This document shows positions 1 to 7,674 of a DNA stretch of 7,674 nt, in pieces; position 1 is the stretch's first letter; each line of letters opens with the position of its first letter. The position numbers and the translations under genes are program-made. This stretch comes from Erythrobacter sp. GTDB lineage: Bacteria; Pseudomonadota; Alphaproteobacteria; Sphingomonadales; Sphingomonadaceae. Below the pieces are notes generated by a model that saw only the letters and a list, made by a program, of their open reading frames with translations, was not told the DNA's origin and did not search any database. Location: contig NZOF01000155.1 of the NCBI GenBank assembly GCA_002695185.1, forward strand, positions 82,421 to 90,094, in the 5' to 3' direction.

Positions 1-299
1 GCGGCGGGCACGTGGCCCTCGATGACGTACCCATCCGCGATCATGGTATGACACGAACGAAGGTCATCGGGGACACCGTGCTGCGTCTTTACCGACGCCA
101 TGTCGGGGTGATCGACCGTTGCGACTTCATGCCGGTCGCCCTGCTGCATGTGCGCCGCCCAGGCTTCGCAACATCCGCAACTGGGATCGCGATACATGGT
201 GAAGCTGGCTGCCTGCGCCGCGCCCGTACAGGCTGCGAGCAATATCGTGCCAAGTATGGGGAGAAGTGGGCGATGGTTCGGATGTCTGCGTTTGCTCAT
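1..299 (-). CDS. copG: DUF411/CopG-type periplasmic copper protein (3' end cut by window edge)
   Basis: The first 99 codons are visible; the gene runs off the window at base 1. The protein starts with a basic N-terminus (MSKRR) and a hydrophobic stretch ending in LLAAC (Cys24), which could be a lipobox. AQA-AS just after it could instead be a signal peptidase I site, so the anchoring is uncertain. The mature part shows the DUF411 signature: MYRDPSCGCCEAW with Cys41, Cys43 and Cys44, then SCHT (Cys83, His84) and GYVIEGHVPA. In the DUF411 family, CopG proteins are thioredoxin-fold periplasmic proteins that bind a copper cluster through these Cys residues and help detoxify copper. The ATG at 299 shares one base with the stop of the upstream lipoprotein gene (TGATG), which indicates translational coupling. 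A role in copper handling is well supported by family and neighbours; the exact chemistry is inferred. Confidence 0.88.
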   Translation of the reverse strand, partial: MSKRRHPNHRPLLPILGTILLAACTGAAQAASFTMYRDPSCGCCEAWAAHMQQGDRHEVATVDHPDMASVKTQHGVPDDLRSCHTMIADGYVIEGHVPA

Positions 300-700
300 C
301 AGTTGTGTCCCATTGCTTTCATGTCTTCATCCGACATGGTCGACATGTCGTGGCCGGCATGCGGATCGTTAACAGGCGTCCCGGTGGGGGCGGGCGCTGG
401 TACAGGCGCTGCATGGGAGCCTTCCCGAACAGGTGTCTTCGCCTCAGCGGGCGCCGGATTTGACTGCGACGCTGCCGGCGCCACCGGTGCCCGGACCCCA
501 GTGGCTGTGCGGGATTCTATCGAGCTGCTGGTCGGGGACGGGGTAGCACTCGCAGAGGTGAGCGGTGCAGAAGGTTCCGCATTGCTGTCACTCTTTTGAT
601 CGTTTCGAGCGTCTGACGAAGCTCCACAAGCAGCCAGCGACAAAAACAAGAACGGCAGAACGCCGATTAATCGCACGTGTTTCGAAGTCTTTCGCTCCAT
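299..700 (-). CDS. small lipoprotein with His/Met-rich C-terminal tail
   Basis: This is a 133-residue protein of no family I recognise. It has a basic start (MERKTSKHVR), a hydrophobic segment, and the lipobox LSLAAC with Cys25 as the predicted lipidated residue. Residues 26 to about 111 are low-complexity Ala/Pro/Ser/Thr, probably an extended linker. The last 22 residues carry the chemistry: DPHAGHDM at 112-119, then Met122, Met127, Met130 and His132, with Asp and Glu between. This looks like a flexible arm holding a metal-binding tail away from the membrane. I chose the ATG at 700 because a GGAG lies seven bases upstream; the in-frame TTG at 718 has no support. The gene follows the DUF2231 gene directly and overlaps copG by one base, so all three are likely one transcript. 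Copper chaperone or sink is inference from composition and context. Confidence 0.8.
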   Translation of the reverse strand: MERKTSKHVRLIGVLPFLFLSLAACGASSDARNDQKSDSNAEPSAPLTSASATPSPTSSSIESRTATGVRAPVAPAASQSNPAPAEAKTPVREGSHAAPVPAPAPTGTPVNDPHAGHDMSTMSDEDMKAMGHN

Positions 701-704
701 GCTC

Positions 705-1403
705 TTACTCCAGACCAAGGTGATTGGGGCCGAAAACCATCTCGCCGCCGAGATAGCCTTGCAGTACGAGTGCTACCGCCAGCACCGCCAGCACGATACG
801 AAGAAGGGTGCGGTTCCTCGCGCGAAATGCCAGCCAGGTCGCAACAAGGGCAACGGCTGCAATCGCCGTTCCATTCCATCGGTGCAGTCCCAACGTCTCG
901 GAGCGGTCCTCGAGGCGCCATCCCGCAGCAAACCAACCGAGGAGTGCAGCGGTAAGCGCGCCAGCGGCCCCCCCGCTGATAAGAAAGCGCACCGTGGTTT
1001 CGAGGCCGAGAGCAGGCCGGATCGTCAGCAAGAGTTCCCCCAAGGCAGCAAGCAAAAGGAGGGCAATCGGAAAATGCGCGGCGACAGGGTGGAGGCGACC
1101 GAGGAAGTCGCTGATCGAGGTAACCCGGTTCTCGGCAATTTTGGCTGCGAGCGCCTGGTCGGCTGTCTGCGGCATGGCGTTTGCCGAAGCTTGACGGGCA
1201 CCTGCTGGGCCGATCATGGCGTCGGGCATCATCTCCGCCCCATCATGATGCGCAGCGGGATGATCCTGCATTTCCATCTGCGCCATCTCGGCCTCGCTCA
1301 GGTCCTTCTTATGACCCTCGTGAGCACTGCCAGGGGCCGAAAGAAGGAGGAGCGCCACAGCGATCGGTGTGAGGAGCCAGAGGAGCGAACGGGATAGCTT
1401 CAT
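705..1403 (-). CDS. DUF2231 membrane protein with exported His/Met-rich N-terminal region
   Basis: The protein has 232 residues. Residues 1-27 form a signal peptide ending APGSA, so the mature chain would begin His28-Glu-Gly-His31. Residues 28 to about 65 are rich in His and Met (Met40, Met43, Met45, His48, His52, His53, Met58, Met59, Met63). The rest is a four-helix membrane domain with the DUF2231 signatures LHPVAAHFPIA (His105, His110), HRWNG (His174) and a C-terminal GYLGGEMVFGPNHLG (His228). DUF2231 proteins have no settled function; the conserved His residues suggest metal or heme binding in the membrane. I chose the ATG at 1403 because it opens a clean signal peptide; a TTG at 1448 would add 15 unlikely residues. 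It is the first gene of the leftward operon, facing the cnr-like genes across the shared control region. Metal handling is inferred. Confidence 0.85.
   Translation of the reverse strand: MKLSRSLLWLLTPIAVALLLLSAPGSAHEGHKKDLSEAEMAQMEMQDHPAAHHDGAEMMPDAMIGPAGARQASANAMPQTADQALAAKIAENRVTSISDFLGRLHPVAAHFPIALLLLAALGELLLTIRPALGLETTVRFLISGGAAGALTAALLGWFAAGWRLEDRSETLGLHRWNGTAIAAVALVATWLAFRARNRTLLRIVLAVLAVALVLQGYLGGEMVFGPNHLGLE
708..711 (-). promoter_or_regulatory. ribosome binding site of the lipoprotein gene
   Basis: GGAG on the minus strand abuts the TAA stop of the DUF2231 gene (707-705), with seven bases between it and the ATG at 700. It fixes the lipoprotein start at 700 and places the site inside the end of the upstream gene, as in coupled operons. 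Confidence 0.6.
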
Positions 1404-1411
1404 GCTTCTCT

Positions 1412-1435
1412 TACGTCCGACCCGTTCGCATCCCT
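1412..1435 (-). promoter_or_regulatory. predicted ECF sigma-dependent promoter, leftward operon
   Basis: On the minus strand AGGGAT (1435-1430) is followed by 14 bases and CGTA (1415-1412). ECF promoters typically have a GGA-containing -35 element and a CGT-containing -10 element at about this spacing. The same arrangement occurs on the other strand at 1448-1471, which strengthens the call. The -10-like element ends only eight bases before the ATG at 1403, so the transcript would be leaderless or nearly so. Confidence 0.6.
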
Positions 1436-1452
1436 CAAAAATTTTCAAGGGA
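1431..1452. repeat. 22-bp inverted repeat holding both -35-like elements
   Basis: The arms are TCCCTcaAAAA and TTTTcaAGGGA. Eighteen of 22 positions are symmetric; the only breaks are the two-base CA steps in each arm. The outer TCCCT/AGGGA blocks are the -35-like elements of the two divergent predicted promoters, and the centre is eight A/T bases. It may be no more than two back-to-back -35 elements, or it may also bind a dimeric regulator. Confidence 0.7.
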
Positions 1453-1471
1453 TATGAGAGGACGAAGCGTA
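1448..1471 (+). promoter_or_regulatory. predicted ECF sigma-dependent promoter, cnr-cop operon
   Basis: AGGGAT (1448-1453), 14 bases, then CGTA (1468-1471). This matches, base for base in both elements and in spacing, the promoter on the opposite strand at 1435-1412. Transcription would begin near 1478, about 24 bases before the cnrY-like ATG, leaving room for the AGGA at 1488-1491 as ribosome binding site. Autoregulation by the sigma factor encoded in the operon is the natural inference. Confidence 0.62.
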
Positions 1472-1501: not shown

Positions 1502-1786
1502 ATGGCTGACAACGAAAGACTTAATCGTGCCTTGCAGTGGCTGGGAGCTGCACCCGATCCTTCGCTGCCCGAAGACTTCATGGGTGGCGTGTGGATGCGG
1601 GCGGGTAAGCTCGAACAGGTCGATGCGACGCGAACGCGTGTCGCCTTATTCACGGCGATGGCATTTATTGGGCTTGGTGCGGGCTTTGGCACGTCGCAAT
1701 CGCCTGCCCGTGAAAGCCAAACAAATTACCAGCTAATCGAAGGCGCCGACCTCTCACCTGCTTCACTGCTGCATGTTCAACCATGA
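1502..1786 (+). CDS. cnrY: CnrY-like membrane anti-sigma factor
   Basis: This small protein has 94 residues, close to the roughly 95 of CnrY from Cupriavidus metallidurans. Residues 1 to about 46 are hydrophilic and presumably cytosolic (MADNERLNRALQWLG at the start), about 47-63 form one membrane helix (VALFTAMAFIGLGAGFG), and about 30 residues lie in the periplasm. In the Cnr system the short cytosolic part of CnrY wraps around the sigma factor and holds it inactive, while its periplasmic end works with the sensor CnrX. Small anti-sigmas of this kind diverge fast, so the call rests on size, topology and position: it is first in a Y-X-H gene order and overlaps the sensor gene by four bases (ATGA). 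The ATG at 1502 has AGGA ten bases upstream; a TTG at 1475 is in frame but would sit at the predicted transcription start. Confidence 0.78.
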   Translation: MADNERLNRALQWLGAAPDPSLPEDFMGGVWMRAGKLEQVDATRTRVALFTAMAFIGLGAGFGTSQSPARESQTNYQLIEGADLSPASLLHVQP

Positions 1787-2223
1787 AGGTCAGCATTCTC
1801 CAGATAGTGCTTGCTGCCCTTCTGGCCGTGGCTGCGGGATGCATCGGCGCATACGCTGCCGGGCAATGGCGCGAGGCATCGCATGCGATCACTTTGCATG
1901 ATTTCGTCCACGAGGAACTCGATCTTGATGCATCGCAGGACAGGAAACTCGATCAGCTCGAGGCGCGGTTCGCTGTTCAACGCCAGGAGCTCGACCTGTC
2001 GCTCAGAGCCGCAAACGCGAGGCTCGCCTCCGCGATGGACGATGAACATGAATACGGGCCCAAGGTGGCCGCGGCTATTGACGAGGTGCACGCACGCATG
2101 GGCGATCTGCAGAAGGCAACAGTCGAGCATGTATTTGCAATGCGCGCCTTGCTCGATCAGGAGCAGCGCGCGCGCTTCGATCGCCAGGTCGCGGCTTCGC
2201 TAACACGCGAACCTGGCGAATGA
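1783..2223 (+). CDS. cnrX: CnrX-like periplasmic metal sensor
   Basis: The protein has 146 residues: an N-terminal membrane anchor (about 5-26) and a helical periplasmic domain. CnrX of C. metallidurans binds Ni or Co through His42, His46, Glu63, His119 and Met123. Here the equivalents are His39 and His43 (LHDFVHEELDLD), Glu60 (LEARF), and His116 and Met120 (EHVFAMRA). All five are present with one constant offset of three residues. The surrounding helices also match what I remember of CnrX, notably RAANARLA and DLQKATVEHVF. The sensor would bind metal in the periplasm and relax the grip of CnrY on the sigma factor. The gene overlaps cnrY by four bases and is followed after six bases by the sigma gene. 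Extra histidines (34, 89, 103) could matter for metal choice. The ligand here could be Ni, Co or Cu; the neighbours point to copper. Confidence 0.9.
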   Translation: MKVSILQIVLAALLAVAAGCIGAYAAGQWREASHAITLHDFVHEELDLDASQDRKLDQLEARFAVQRQELDLSLRAANARLASAMDDEHEYGPKVAAAIDEVHARMGDLQKATVEHVFAMRALLDQEQRARFDRQVAASLTREPGE

Positions 2224-2229
2224 CAGGTC

Positions 2230-2790
2230 GTGGAGGGGCGGAACGACACACCTGACGAGGAACTGGTCGAAAAGATAATTGCAGGGGACAAGGCAGCATT
2301 CGGCAGACTCGTCGAGCCTCATCTGCCCCGCCTGCTCGGTCTGGCCCGCCGGATGCTCTCGTCTGCCGACGAAGCCGAAGATGCGCTGCAGAACGCACTG
2401 GCATCGGTTTGGATGGCGCGAGCCAAGCTCGATCCTCGCAAGCCTGTAGCAGCCTATCTGACAACCGTGACGCTCAACAAATGCCGCGACCGGCTCAGGC
2501 GCCAAAAGGTTGTGCGGCTGCTGAGTTTGAGGGCCCTAGGTCCCGACGTTGCCGTTGCGGCAGACGAACCCGGTCCTGATGTTGAGATCGCCGACCGGCA
2601 ATTGCTCGCTCAGGTCACCAACGCGATAGATCGCTTGCCGCTCCGCCTTCGCGAGGCTCTTGTTTTGGTCGCCATCGAGGGGCGAAGCCATGGCGAGGTT
2701 GCTAAATTGTTGGGAGTGACGGAAAAATCGGTCGAAACACGTGTGTATCGGGCCCGTCAGCGCCTGCGCAATAAGATCGATTTTCTTTGA
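2230..2790 (+). CDS. cnrH: ECF RNA polymerase sigma factor, CnrH-like
   Basis: The 186-residue protein has the two-domain layout of ECF sigma factors. Region 2 spans about residues 12-92, with DEAEDALQNALASVW (47-61) as the core-binding helix and the basic stretch DRLRRQK behind it. A variable linker follows, then region 4 at about 133-182 with IDRLPLRLREALVLV and the helix-turn-helix GRSHGEVAKLLGVTEKSVETRVYRARQRLR. Third position in a Y-X-H order marks it as the CnrH equivalent, released from CnrY when the sensor binds metal. The start is a GTG at 2230, the first possible one: it lies in the same frame as cnrX, two codons after its TGA. A weak AGG (2225-2227) sits very close to it, so translation may depend on coupling to cnrX. 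Targets are probably the two promoters at 1412-1471. Confidence 0.9.
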   Translation: MEGRNDTPDEELVEKIIAGDKAAFGRLVEPHLPRLLGLARRMLSSADEAEDALQNALASVWMARAKLDPRKPVAAYLTTVTLNKCRDRLRRQKVVRLLSLRALGPDVAVAADEPGPDVEIADRQLLAQVTNAIDRLPLRLREALVLVAIEGRSHGEVAKLLGVTEKSVETRVYRARQRLRNKIDFL

Positions 2791-2822
2791 GGGGTGATGG
2801 CGGTCGCGGCGTAAACAGAGGC

Positions 2823-4676
2823 ATGAGCATACTTCCTCTAATCGACGACGTCGCAATCAACCGCAGAAAGTTCCTCACCGCCAGCGCCGGCGCGGCAAGC
2901 TTGCTCGCCCTCGGTCAGACAGCGCCGGCATGGGCCCGCGGCGCCGACCTGCACGGCGGCGGCCCCATCCGCCCCGGCTTCGACGAAGTGTCGGGCCGCG
3001 ACATCGCACTGACGATCGGCGAAGGTCCGCGCGTTGTGCAGGGGCGTCGCGGCCACGCCATCGCTGTAAATGGGAGCGTACCGGGTCCGCTGATCCGTCT
3101 CAAGGAAGGTCAGCCGGTCCGGCTGGCAGTGACGAATACACTCCATGAAGACAGCTCCATTCACTGGCACGGGCTGCTTCTGCCATTCCAGTACGACGGC
3201 GTACCGGGTGTCAGCTTTCCCGGCATCAAACCTGGAGAGACTTTCGTCTATGACATCCCCGCGCTGCGACAGAGCGGCACCTACTGGTGGCATAGTCACT
3301 CGGGGTTGCAGGAGCAGGCCGGGCACTACGGCCCGATCGTGGTTGAACCCGCCGGGACGGTCCCCGTGCAAGCGGACCGCGACTATGTTCTACTCCTGAG
3401 CGACTTCACGCCTCTTCACCCCCATACGATCATGGACAAGCTGAAGAAGGGCGAAGGCTACTTCAATTACCAGCAGAACACCTGGACCGACGACTATCCG
3501 CTGTCGGGCGAGGACCGCCGGATGTGGGCGCGTATGCGCATGATGGCGACCGACATCCTCGACGTGACCGGCTCGACCTACACTTACCTCGCCAACGGGC
3601 GCGGACCGGAAGAGGGTCTCGAGTTCCTGTTCAACCTTGGCGAGCGAGTACGGCTGCGCGTCATCAACGGCAGCGCCATGACATTTTTCAACGTCCGCAT
3701 TCCCGGAGTGAAGTTCTGGGTGGTCGGTGCCGACGGTCAAAACGTGCGCCCGGTCGAGGTCGAGGAGTTTCAGATCGGCACGGCCGAGACCTACGACATC
3801 GTCGTCGAGCCGACCGGGGAAGCCCGCACGATCGTGGCCGAGAGCATGGACCGGTCGGGCATGGCGGTGGCGACCCTAGCCTCGCGTCCCGGCGCGCGGG
3901 CACCGGTTCCGCCCTTGCGCGATCCGCCACTGCTGACGATGGCGGATATGGGTATGAACCACGGCTCGGGCGGAATGGACCATGGCGGTGGCGACGACAT
4001 GGGCGGGATGGACCATTCGGCCATGGGCCACGACATGCCATCGCAAGGTGCGTCTGCGGATCCGATGGCCGGAATGGACATGAGCGGCATGGATATGCGC
4101 GACACATCCCTGCTGCCGCCCAGCGTGGAGGTCGGCCCCGGCATCGACATGGTGTCGATGAACCCGGTCGATCGCATGGGCGATCCGGGCCTCGGCCTGG
4201 ACAACGTTCCCCACAAGGTTCTCACCTACAAGGATCTTGTGGCGCTCGAGCCGAACGACGATCTGCGCCGCCCGACACGTCAGATGGAGATCCATCTGAC
4301 CGGCAACATGGAGCGCTACATGTGGTCGTTCGACGGCAAGAAGTTTACCGCCGTCAGCGACGACCCCATCCGCTTCGCCTATAACGAACGTGTCCGTGTG
4401 AAGCTCGTCAACGATACGATGATGGCGCATCCGATCCATCTGCACGGCCATTTCTTCGAACTGGTCAACGGCGCGCCTGCCGACCGGCAGCCGCAGAAGC
4501 ATACGGTTATCGTGCAGCCCGGCGGCAGCGCCACCTTCGACCTCACCGCCGACGAACAGGGCGACTGGGCCTTTCACTGCCACCTGCTCTACCACATGCA
4601 TTCGGGCATGTTCCAGATCGTGACCGTCGCCCAGCCGCCTTCGGCGCCCGATGTGAAACGGGTGGGAGAAGACTGA
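2823..4676 (+). CDS. copA: CopA-type periplasmic multicopper oxidase
   Basis: The protein has 617 residues, similar to CopA and PcoA. The N-terminus is a twin-arginine signal (NRRKFLTASAG, ending in AWA), so it is exported folded by the Tat system. Copper ligands of the multicopper oxidase fold are all visible: HWHG (His114, His116), WWHSH (His157, His159), HPIHLHGH (His536, 539, 541) and HCHLLYHMHSGM, giving type 1 ligands His536, Cys586, His591 and Met596. Between the second and third cupredoxin domains, residues 373-425 are Met/His-rich (repeats like GMDH, GMDM), a feature of copper-resistance oxidases that bind Cu(I). The family oxidises Cu(I) to less toxic Cu(II) in the periplasm. The ATG at 2823 has AGAGG one base away, which is tight; a TTG at 2787 overlaps the sigma gene and is less likely. 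copB overlaps its stop by one base. Confidence 0.96.
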   Translation: MSILPLIDDVAINRRKFLTASAGAASLLALGQTAPAWARGADLHGGGPIRPGFDEVSGRDIALTIGEGPRVVQGRRGHAIAVNGSVPGPLIRLKEGQPVRLAVTNTLHEDSSIHWHGLLLPFQYDGVPGVSFPGIKPGETFVYDIPALRQSGTYWWHSHSGLQEQAGHYGPIVVEPAGTVPVQADRDYVLLLSDFTPLHPHTIMDKLKKGEGYFNYQQNTWTDDYPLSGEDRRMWARMRMMATDILDVTGSTYTYLANGRGPEEGLEFLFNLGERVRLRVINGSAMTFFNVRIPGVKFWVVGADGQNVRPVEVEEFQIGTAETYDIVVEPTGEARTIVAESMDRSGMAVATLASRPGARAPVPPLRDPPLLTMADMGMNHGSGGMDHGGGDDMGGMDHSAMGHDMPSQGASADPMAGMDMSGMDMRDTSLLPPSVEVGPGIDMVSMNPVDRMGDPGLGLDNVPHKVLTYKDLVALEPNDDLRRPTRQMEIHLTGNMERYMWSFDGKKFTAVSDDPIRFAYNERVRVKLVNDTMMAHPIHLHGHFFELVNGAPADRQPQKHTVIVQPGGSATFDLTADEQGDWAFHCHLLYHMHSGMFQIVTVAQPPSAPDVKRVGED

Positions 4677-5896
4677 TGCACCTGATCGTCGCCATGTTTC
4701 TGGCGGGCACCGCCACCCCGACCTTCGCGCAGGACCATTCGGGCCACGCGATGCCCGCGCCCCAGGCTCCTGCCCAGACCGAATGCGAAAAGGAGGCCGC
4801 ACGTCATCGCGCCATGGGCCACCCGGTGCCCGAGGGAGCGTGTGCGCCCACTGCGCAACCGGGCGAAACAGCCTCCGCCGATCCGCACCAAGACCACTCT
4901 GGCATGGATCATTCGCAGATGAACCATAGCCAGATGGAGGGGATGGACCATTCCACCATGGACCATTCGGGGATGGATCATAGCCAGATGCCGGCGATGG
5001 ACGATTCTACCATGGAAAACATGGACCACGAGGCGATGGGCCATGAAGGGATGCAGTCGTCCGGCCAACCACCGATGAACCATCAGTCGATGGACCACGG
5101 GATGATGGACCATGGCACTATGGACCATGGCGCCATGGACATGACCCCCATCCCGCAAGGACCGCCTCCGGCTGCGGCGGGATCGGGACCGCCCCGTGCC
5201 GCCGATGCGATCTGGGGGGCGGACGCGATGCGTGCCTCCCGCGATGCTCTGCGCGCCGAGAACGGCGGGATGAACGTTTTCTGGTTCCAGGGCGACCGCG
5301 CCGAATATCGCGCACGGGAAGGCGGGGATGGTTACCTGTGGGACGTGCAGGGCTACTACGGCGGCGACCTCGACAAGTTCTGGTTCAAGAGCGAGGGCGA
5401 AGGCACATTCGGCGAAAAGCCCGAGTCCGCTGAAATCCAAGGCTTGTGGAGCCACGCGATCGGCCCATGGTGGGACCTGCAAGCCGGCGTACGGCAGGAC
5501 CTGACGGGCCCCGAACGGACCCACGCCGTCCTCGGCGTGCAGGGTCTGGCGCCCTATATGTTCGAGGTCGATGCGGCCGCTTTCCTGTCGACCAAGGGCG
5601 ATCTGACGGCACGTGTCGAAGCCGAACTGGACCAGCGAATAACGCAGCGCCTTATCCTGCAACCGCGCGCTGAGGTGAACCTGTCCGCGCAGGACATTCC
5701 CGAACTGGGTGTCGGAGCCGGTCTCGATTCGGTCGAATTGGGGCTGCGGCTGCGCTACGAATTCGTCCGTGAATTCGCGCCCTATGTCGGCATCGAGCAG
5801 GAATGGAAGGTTGGCCAGAGCGCCGACTATGCCCACCTTGCGGGCGAGGATCCAAGCGTGACCAACTATGTCGTGGGCGTTCGGTTCTGGTTCTGA
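4676..5896 (+). CDS. copB: CopB copper-resistance outer-membrane protein
   Basis: The 406-residue protein has three parts. Residues 1-18 are a signal peptide (ends PTFA, mature start QDHSGHAM); it lacks any Lys or Arg at its start, which is unusual. Residues 73-156 are a run of MDHxxM-like repeats, a likely Cu-binding brush. Residues from about 175 to the end are the CopB/PcoB domain, starting AADAIWG and AMRASRDAL, with alternating amphipathic strands and a C-terminal Trp-Phe typical of outer-membrane barrels. CopB acts with CopA in periplasmic copper tolerance, though whether it exports or sequesters copper is unsettled. The ATG shares one base with the copA stop (TGATG), so the two are translationally coupled. 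The repeat region varies widely in length across the family. Confidence 0.95.
   Translation: MHLIVAMFLAGTATPTFAQDHSGHAMPAPQAPAQTECEKEAARHRAMGHPVPEGACAPTAQPGETASADPHQDHSGMDHSQMNHSQMEGMDHSTMDHSGMDHSQMPAMDDSTMENMDHEAMGHEGMQSSGQPPMNHQSMDHGMMDHGTMDHGAMDMTPIPQGPPPAAAGSGPPRAADAIWGADAMRASRDALRAENGGMNVFWFQGDRAEYRAREGGDGYLWDVQGYYGGDLDKFWFKSEGEGTFGEKPESAEIQGLWSHAIGPWWDLQAGVRQDLTGPERTHAVLGVQGLAPYMFEVDAAAFLSTKGDLTARVEAELDQRITQRLILQPRAEVNLSAQDIPELGVGAGLDSVELGLRLRYEFVREFAPYVGIEQEWKVGQSADYAHLAGEDPSVTNYVVGVRFWF
4892..5143 (+). repeat. degenerate tandem repeats coding for MDHxxM units in copB
   Basis: The reading frame contains eight MDH units plus variants MNH (twice), MGH and MDD, spaced mostly four to eight residues apart. 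At DNA level the core is ATGGACCAT or ATGGATCAT, with the best-preserved copies near 4944-4990 and 5090-5140. Such arrays can expand or contract by slippage. The opposite strand reads as false His/Val/Met-rich open frames because of the same repetition. Confidence 0.85.
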
Positions 5897-5907: not shown

Positions 5908-6423
5908 ATGAGGTTTACAGGTTTCGCGGCTGCGGCTGCGGCGGCACTCGCTGCGATGGCCACTGCGGCGCACGCTCAGCATGCCGGTCATGGCGATCAT
6001 TCCGCCCATAGCGCACAAATTGCGGCGCCGGACGCGCTCACGCAACAGGCGCAGGCCGTGCTCGTTGCCTACCGTGAGGCACTGGTTGCCCGTGACGAGG
6101 CGGCCATGCGGACGCTGTTTGCCGCGGACTCGCTGGTTTTCGAGAATGGCAAGGCCGAGGGCACGTTCGCGCAGTACATGGAACACCACCTCGGCCCAGA
6201 GCTCGGCGAGATCACCGAGTTCGCATTCACCAATCCGACGGTGAACGCCAGGATAGTCGGTCATGTGGCGTATGGCCATGAAACTTACCGCTACCGGATC
6301 GCCCTCACGGATGGCCGTGTAATCGAGCGCGACGGGGTTGCGACGTCCGTACTGACGCACGAGGATGGCAACTGGAAAATCGTCCAGTACCACTCCTCGT
6401 CACGCGCGCCGCGCCAGAACTGA
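5908..6423 (+). CDS. exported NTF2-like (SnoaL/DUF4440-type) protein with His-rich N-terminus
   Basis: The protein has 171 residues. Residues 1-23 are an Ala-rich signal peptide (ends AHA), and the mature chain opens with QHAGHGDHSAHS, five histidines in 11 residues. From about 44 to 165 the pattern fits the NTF2-like fold: a first helix (AQAVLVAYREALVARDEAAM), LFAADSLVFENGKAEG, and a final strand pair ending HEDGNWKIVQYHSSS, as in DUF4440 and SnoaL-like proteins. Members range from enzymes to simple binding proteins, so no reaction can be assigned. The gene sits 11 bases after copB with its own ribosome binding site and precedes the PepSY gene by 13 bases. A periplasmic role linked to copper, with the His-rich end binding metal, is inference from composition and operon position. 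Confidence 0.83.
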   Translation: MRFTGFAAAAAAALAAMATAAHAQHAGHGDHSAHSAQIAAPDALTQQAQAVLVAYREALVARDEAAMRTLFAADSLVFENGKAEGTFAQYMEHHLGPELGEITEFAFTNPTVNARIVGHVAYGHETYRYRIALTDGRVIERDGVATSVLTHEDGNWKIVQYHSSSRAPRQN

Positions 6424-6436
6424 TCAACCGGCCGCG

Positions 6437-7165
6437 ATGACAGGCCAGCGTTCGCGCAAGCTGCGACTGCACATCTTTGGCAGCAAGGTCCACAAGTGGC
6501 TCGCAGTCTTCGTCGGCGTGCAAGCCCTCCTGTGGACGGCAACCGGGACGATCATGTCGTTCCTGAAAATCGAACACGTCCGTTCCGAGCACGTGATCTC
6601 GCGCGAACCATTACCCCTGGGCGTTGACGCTCCGCTACCTGCATGGGCGGCTAACGAGGGCGACCTGGTCTCGGCAACGACGAAGACCGTCAACGGCGAT
6701 CCGGTGGTTGAATTGAAGCGCGTCGATGGCAGCGCAACATTGCACGAAGCAGTGACCGGAAGGAAATTGTCGCCGCTCTCGCGCGACGCCGCCGAGCAAA
6801 TCGCCTCGGCTGCCTGGACGGGACCCAGCACCGCGATCAAATCCTCAATGTCGATCGAAGCGCCGGTCGGCACCGAATTCGGCGGACCGTTTCCGGCGTG
6901 GCAGGTGCAATTTGCCGATCCGGATGGCACGCGCCTCTACATCGACGCTTCAACCGGCGCGGTGCTCGCGGCGCGCAGCGATACCTGGCGCCTATTCGAC
7001 CTCGTCTGGGGACTCCACATCATGGACTGGACCCAGCGTGACCGGATCAACAGCTGGTGGCTGCTCCTGTTCGGCATCGGCGGGACCGTCATTGCAATTT
7101 CCGGCTTCGTGCTTCTTGCCAATCGCTTTCCCAAGCTCCGGCGCAATCGCGCGAAGGGGCCGTAG
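6437..7165 (+). CDS. PepSY domain membrane protein
   Basis: The 242-residue protein has two membrane helices, about 21-43 (starting KVHKWLAVFVGVQALLW) and about 207-228 (SWWLLLFGIGGTVIAISG), with a periplasmic part between. Residues about 152-180 match a PepSY unit (AWQVQFADPDGTRLYID followed by STGAVLA). His19 beside the first helix and His194 (WGLHIMDW) before the second recur in PepSY-associated membrane proteins, some of which are heme or flavin-linked reductases; that role is not shown here. The C-terminus is basic and cytosolic. I chose the ATG at 6437 because the longer frame from 6365 overlaps the previous gene by 59 bases and adds a non-hydrophobic, unlikely extension. No clear Shine-Dalgarno is seen, so translation may be coupled. 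It is the last gene of the operon. A redox or assembly partner for CopA or CopB is a guess from context. Confidence 0.85.
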   Translation: MTGQRSRKLRLHIFGSKVHKWLAVFVGVQALLWTATGTIMSFLKIEHVRSEHVISREPLPLGVDAPLPAWAANEGDLVSATTKTVNGDPVVELKRVDGSATLHEAVTGRKLSPLSRDAAEQIASAAWTGPSTAIKSSMSIEAPVGTEFGGPFPAWQVQFADPDGTRLYIDASTGAVLAARSDTWRLFDLVWGLHIMDWTQRDRINSWWLLLFGIGGTVIAISGFVLLANRFPKLRRNRAKGP

Positions 7166-7415: not shown

Positions 7416-7674
7416 TCACGATGACGATAAGGCGATAGACGAGATATCGGCCTTGGGATCGATATCGCGTTTGGCTTCCTTGCGCTCCGAATAGCGGTCG
7501 ACCAGCTGGTCGGCATGCGGGCGCAGCAGGACGGTGAACCGCACCAGTTCCTCCATGACATCGACGATGCGGTCATAGAGCGAGGACGGTTTCATGCGGC
7601 CCGCCTCGTCGAACTCCTCGTATGCCTTCGGCACGCTTGACTGGTTCGGGATGGTGAACATCCGCATCCAGCGC
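7416..7674 (-). CDS. arsH: ArsH NADPH-dependent flavoprotein, C-terminal part (5' end outside window)
   Basis: The last 86 codons before the stop at 7416 are visible; the start lies beyond base 7674. The sequence [20 protein letters not shown], followed by [23 protein letters not shown]-like [12 protein letters not shown], and [10 protein letters not shown], is the highly conserved C-terminal third of ArsH. ArsH is a cytosolic FMN-binding oxidoreductase of the flavodoxin-like family that uses NADPH and confers resistance to organic arsenicals by oxidising trivalent forms. The frame stays open to the window edge, with Arg-Trp before the first internal Met, so this is a continuing gene and not a short one. 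It converges on the copper operon and probably belongs to a separate ars operon further right, showing that the region groups several metal and metalloid resistances. Confidence 0.93.

Follow-up and report, generated by a model that had tools for sequence, protein, structure and literature searches.

The closest described counterpart of the locus studied here is the cnr system of Cupriavidus metallidurans plasmid pMOL28. Its regulatory genes follow the order cnrY-cnrX-cnrH. One promoter precedes cnrY and another precedes the first output gene, and each combines a G-rich -35 element with CGTA at a fixed distance. Both promoters, cnrYp and cnrCp, read GGGG-N16-CGTA (GGGG spacing counted by hand), and the published start lies 9 nt past the last A of CGTA. 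PMC9045368 places the starts 23 and 24 bp upstream of cnrY and cnrC, and quotes 24 and 25 bp from older primer extension.

The window, which is the whole analysed stretch of 7,674 nucleotides from Erythrobacter sp., carries homologous sigma and sensor genes in the same Y-X-H order, followed by the output genes copA and copB (Table 1). Between cnrY and the first leftward gene, the motif AGGGAT-N14-CGTA occurs on both strands, back to back. Judged by comparison with relatives and with pMOL28, this pair very probably represents two back-to-back promoters of the CnrH-type ECF sigma factor, driving both operons. Titles and abstract openings of the open-licence literature yielded no published account of the pair.

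Genes and sequence elements of the locus

Table 1. Genes and predicted promoter elements in the window
Feature	Position	Strand	Details
DUF411 protein, cut by window edge	3..299	-	PF04214, E 5.6e-9
Small 133-aa protein, no Pfam family	302..700	-	
DUF2231 membrane protein, first leftward gene	705..1403	-	PF09990, E 3e-9
Leftward CnrH-type promoter (predicted)	1412..1435	-	-35 AGGGAT 1435-1430, 14 nt, -10 CGTA 1415-1412
A/T-rich core separating the AGGG blocks	1436..1447		CAAAAATTTTCA, 12 bases; candidate upstream tract of both promoters
Rightward CnrH-type promoter of cnrYXH (predicted)	1448..1471	+	-35 AGGGAT 1448-1453, 14 nt, -10 CGTA 1468-1471
CnrY-like small protein (94 aa), presumed anti-sigma	1502..1786	+	Position and size only
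CnrX-like periplasmic metal sensor	1783..2223	+	PF13801; best PDB chains are CnrX/NccX
CnrH-like ECF sigma factor	2230..2790	+	Sigma-70 regions 2 and 4; best PDB match 4cxf CnrH
Third promoter, before copA (predicted)	2788..2813	+	TGAGGGGT-N14-CGTA, one-base variant
CopA, copper resistance multicopper oxidase	2823..4676	+	TIGR01480, 754 bits (cut-off 479)
CopB, copper resistance protein B	4676..5896	+	PF05275, E 5e-87

The sigma factor is nearest to CnrH. In the PDB, 4cxf matches with E 5e-25 and the runner-up with 1e-15. In the CnrX-like sensor, H39, H43, E60 and H116 align to identical residues of chain 3zg1_A, and M120 stands opposite Ala. All five residues, which we take to be the CnrX metal ligands, are invariant across the three paralogs of the genome. 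The 94-aa CnrY-like protein has no match in Pfam, NCBIfam or the PDB and is placed as in cnrYXH. Downstream of copB lie genes for a SnoaL/DUF4440 protein (5908-6423, plus strand) and a PepSY membrane protein (6437-7165, plus strand). On the minus strand at 7416-7673, the C-terminal part of an ArsH-like protein matches TIGR02690 positions 156-219 of 219 with E 3e-35, under the cut-off because the gene runs past the window edge; an arsenic gene thus adjoins the copper cluster. Sphingobium naphthae and Altericroceibacterium spongiae (L023 and L024; cnrX at 6001-6438) each carry a CnrX with 100% identity to that of the window, suggesting recent transfer of the cluster between genera.

AGGGAT-N14-CGTA is exact on each strand, as the earlier note had claimed. 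Its proposal that the -35 blocks are the ends of an inverted repeat is also supported; the repeat is real though imperfect, with arms 1430-1441 and 1442-1453 being 83% complementary. The third copy begins within the sigma stop codon (2788-2790) and finishes 9 nt ahead of the copA start codon. This copy, and similar sets at two more cnrYXH-copA loci of the genome, were absent from that note. The usual ECF -35 element is of the AAC type; the -35 element here differs, a point against the CnrH-type reading. A search of 1300-1600 for a sigma-70-like promoter or a terminator found none, and an Rfam scan of the window gave no match. An RNA fold is possible at 1425-1460 (z -2.75), but this segment lies outside both predicted transcripts.

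Occurrence in the genome and conservation among relatives

The exact motif AGGGAT-N14-CGTA occurs 8 times in the genome (5.46 Mb) and 3 times in the backwards-read control. Five of these 8 matches fall at the three best CnrH-like sigma loci, which make up ~9 kb in total, and the chance of such a placement is near 1e-12 by hand arithmetic. The back-to-back double pattern with a gap of 4-30 is found twice in the genome and 0 times in the reversed control. Looser forms show no excess over the whole genome: there are 363 matches versus 347 in the control for RGGGAT-N14-CGTA with 1 mismatch, and 20 versus 45 for YRAGGG-N16-CGTA, with 8 of the 20 at the three sigma loci. The signal therefore consists of exact, locus-specific matches. 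In the window, allowing up to 2 mismatches gives 7 matches, and shuffles average 4.5. The other 12 YRAGGG-N16-CGTA matches and two more of AGGGAT-N14-CGTA all overlap ORFs (called mechanically, at least 100 aa), and no further target is claimed, although a genuine promoter may be among them.

The two sigma paralogs lie at C1:1033781-1034308 (41% identity) and C2:753532-754056 (32%), and the next match is far weaker (E 2e-11). Both sit in cnrY-cnrX-sigma-copA order, at loci B and C. At locus B the back-to-back layout recurs, the gap being 15 rather than 12 and the gene opposite being DUF411. Locus C carries sites at cnrY and copA and lacks a divergent copy.

Relatives keep the elements, with a fixed distance inside each, at the same three places, and the elements go together with cnrX loci. 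With a CnrX profile, the best 80 of 253 relatives were picked irrespective of the motif. AGGG-N16-CGTA is present at cnrY in 79/80, at the divergent site in 75/80 and before copA in 73/80. These 80 loci hold many near copies and reduce to 44 distinct site sets; thinning at 75% identity per site leaves 16, 16 and 13 representatives for cnrY, divergent and copA sites. In the 44 distinct loci, 43, 39 and 38 matches at the three sites have the spacing of 16, against 0-3 for any other value between 8 and 24 and 0-5 in the reversed control. Mono-shuffled windows contain a match in 27/6000. Among the misses, L039 and L067 are contigs ending early; in L025, L026, L031 and L033 the copA site has one change in the AGGG block with the CGTA distance kept; in L044 and L057 CGGG replaces AGGG at the divergent site. 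AGGG and CGTA themselves are given by the way the sites were chosen; elsewhere, conservation is highest in a T-rich stretch directly 5' of AGGG, closing in G (rarer A), at all three sites, and at the base immediately 5' of CGTA. In the comparison with relatives that had been proposed, the elements and their internal spacing are thus kept.

A search blind to genes, with the pattern TACG-N16-CCCT-N(4-30)-AGGG-N16-CGTA, leads to the same kind of locus. Among the matches listed, the pair with a gap of 4-30 is found in 99/396 genomes of the order (reversed control 5), and with gaps of 18-48 in 73/195 genomes of the genus (control 10). A total of 55 pairs were fetched, including some near copies and locus B itself. 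In 52 of the 55, among the matches listed, a cnrX relative lies on one side, pointing away, and the gene on the opposite side, also pointing away, is DUF2231, DUF411, CopC, CopD or a methyltransferase. L104, L143 and L150 depart from this arrangement. The layout recurs in many related bacteria, which argues for a real control element rather than coincidence. The class-wide search, with gaps of 8-38, gives 4/241 genomes (control 1): the source genome, another member of its family, and a further two from outside the order, which lack the A/T-rich core and are probably chance. In L143 (1501-1588) and L150 (362-449) the pairs have a gap of 40 and flanks without a CnrX relative; the downstream ORFs of L143 resemble, by eye, a thioredoxin-reductase-type oxidoreductase and a metal-transporting ATPase.

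The presence of two more CnrH-like sigma factors, with nearly the same elements at all three loci, raises the possibility that one or several of them read the pair, and not the local sigma factor alone; each of the three paralogs might even read every set. We regard this cross-regulation as possible, if somewhat doubtful. Each set stands at its own cnrYXH locus and 52 of the 55 fetched pairs flank cnrX, as autoregulation predicts, and cross-talk is compatible with the same arrangement. Cross-regulation also overlaps with the preferred explanation, since the promoters and their layout would be unchanged. The earlier claim that one CnrH-like sigma factor drives both operons is probably right, in view of the conserved elements and spacing, the nearness of the sigma factor to CnrH and the similar Cupriavidus promoters.

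Inverted repeat, gap length and predicted starts

The repeat at 1430-1453 might instead be an operator through which a dimeric regulator represses or activates both genes, with CGTA being incidental. Its arms are largely complementary and it lies between divergent genes, where operators are often located. Several observations make this highly improbable. Only AGGG is kept in the arms: of the 38 distinct loci that have the two elements, 3 show the same 6-mer on both sides and 0 the same 8-mer. The distance between the half-sites is inconstant, with a core of 11-17 bp at the cnrX loci carrying both elements (sample of 80) and of 22-44 bp in fetched pairs with CopC/CopD opposite. Lone copies, lacking the mirror image, are present before copA and also at the cnrY of locus C, and the distance from AGGG to CGTA is fixed, though it would be irrelevant to an operator. 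When 10 proteins of the window were scanned, only the sigma factor matched a DNA-binding family.

With two CnrH-type promoters, the repeat would have a simpler origin. The two spacers of the 38 distinct loci have on average 4.6 of 14 bases alike, and AGGG and CGTA alone are common to both sides. Fetched pairs with DUF2231, DUF411 or a methyltransferase opposite have gaps of 11-16 bp, with the exception of L105 (DUF411), where the gap is 22. The A/T content of the core is 0.76 versus 0.38 in the spacers for this short class, and 0.53 versus 0.40 for the long class. Lone copA sites have a T-rich stretch 5' of AGGG too, lying partly within the sigma reading frame. Most simply, each promoter would favour an A/T tract 5' of its -35 element and a close pair would use one in common; the core at 1436-1447 would serve both promoters of the window in this way. 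The inverted repeat would then exist because two promoters share one A/T tract, and would be mostly a by-product.

By the 9-nt rule from pMOL28, cnrY transcription is predicted to start at 1480, giving a 22-nt leader with AGGA. The divergent start is predicted at 1403, the A of the ATG of the DUF2231 gene, and the copA start at 2822, one base 5' of its ATG. The start codons in relatives were picked mechanically, and some are wrong, cnrY above all; with these, 13/43 distinct loci have the copA start codon 9 nt past CGTA, and 24/43 have it 32-33 nt past. AGGA or AGGAG precedes the copA start in 20 of the 24 loci with the longer distance, and AGGA or GGAG in none of the 13 with the shorter one. 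The divergent start codon lies 8 nt past CGTA in 7/42 distinct loci. Start codons 8-9 nt past CGTA suggest that the messages of the DUF2231 gene and copA are leaderless in the clade of the window.

The predicted divergent and cnrY starts are 77 bp apart. A bidirectional promoter with one symmetric -10 was considered and rejected. In that class a single -10 region serves both directions and the starts are close together; here there are two separate -35/-10 sets, with the predicted starts at the distance just given. At 77 bp, the edges of two polymerases would meet near the -35 blocks, so the closeness of the pair could allow only one polymerase to load, firing one way at a time. A precedent is the ECF polymerase at hrpJ, which occludes the divergent hrpL promoter region (PMC5263251). 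We find such a direction switch unlikely, and the earlier suggestion that the site chooses a direction or fires the two in turn is not upheld. The gap drifts over 11-17 bp, and over 22-44 bp in the second class with the layout alike, and a constant geometry for a clash is therefore not maintained. Copper-cluster genes with the same promoter lie on either side, and joint induction is expected of them; it fits better than a switch. The copA promoter is, in addition, separate from the pair. Interference at the 12-bp gap is possible. Nothing points to its having been selected, because the identical layout occurs with 22-44 bp.

The gap lengths fall into groups. The 80 unique pairs form 44 clusters, with 21 at 10-18, 0 at 19-21, 17 at 22-30 and 6 above 30. 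A Rayleigh-type test against a flat distribution gives p values of 0.0015 at 10.5 bp and 0.0001 at 11 bp for the 44 clusters, and 0.024 and 0.003, respectively, for a looser clustering into 28. Single-linkage over 177 entries, 127 of them in one cluster, gives 0.14 at 10.5, 0.06 at 11 and 0.03 at 11.5 bp. Because each of the two main gap classes has its own kinds of divergent partner, common descent may be enough to account for the gap clusters. Helical phasing was therefore rejected as a finding, being confounded with the kind of partner. It is improbable that the gap is in helical register and that the two polymerases are mechanically coupled, helping or gating each other. If they were, the sigma-polymerases would sit on set helix faces around one A/T tract, and the pair would be a two-headed promoter.

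Proposed mechanism and comparison with known systems

In the proposed mechanism, the CnrX-like protein would sense periplasmic metal, probably copper, and the CnrY-like protein would then let go of the CnrH-like sigma factor. Copper is suggested as the metal by the gene content alone. The sigma factor with RNA polymerase would read YGAGGG-N16-CGTA at three places, the rightward copy of the window having CAAGGG. The leftward promoter would serve the DUF2231 gene, the rightward one cnrYXH itself, giving positive feedback, and the third one copA-copB. We infer that this sigma factor reads the elements and that metal would induce both sides together, the leftward side along with copA. In Sphingobium sp. 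ba1, exposure to nickel is reported to raise copA and copB as well as a copC gene (PMC5557971).

This reading would give a concrete promoter rule for the CnrH-like sigma factors of sphingomonads and would tie them to copper defence, not to nickel-cobalt efflux. It also puts exact positions on the predicted starts, two of which would give leaderless messages. The many natural gap lengths offer a test bed for whether polymerases facing away from a common upstream edge interfere with, ignore or help each other.

Two other divergent arrangements can be compared. In the alphaproteobacterial general stress response, the phyR and nepR-ecfG units are also divergent and have promoters of a locally encoded ECF sigma factor, as described in PMC8103513. 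They differ from the window in the sigma group and in the PhyR-NepR partner switch. In the hrpJ-hrpL region of Pseudomonas syringae, PMC5263251 describes a promoter of the ECF sigma factor HrpL divergent to its own sigma gene, with the bound polymerase extending into the neighbouring promoter. There, hrpL is sigma-54 dependent and the feedback is negative, whereas the pair of the window has the same ECF type on both sides.

The cnr system of pMOL28 remains the nearest in its genes and promoters, and differs from the window in several points. Its -35 element is GGGG where the window has AGGG, and the next annotated gene left of its cnrY is a small YHYH-domain gene. Its output is the nickel-cobalt efflux system cnrCBAT, whereas that of the window is copA-copB, and the locus therefore appears to be a CnrH-like copper variant rather than cnr itself.
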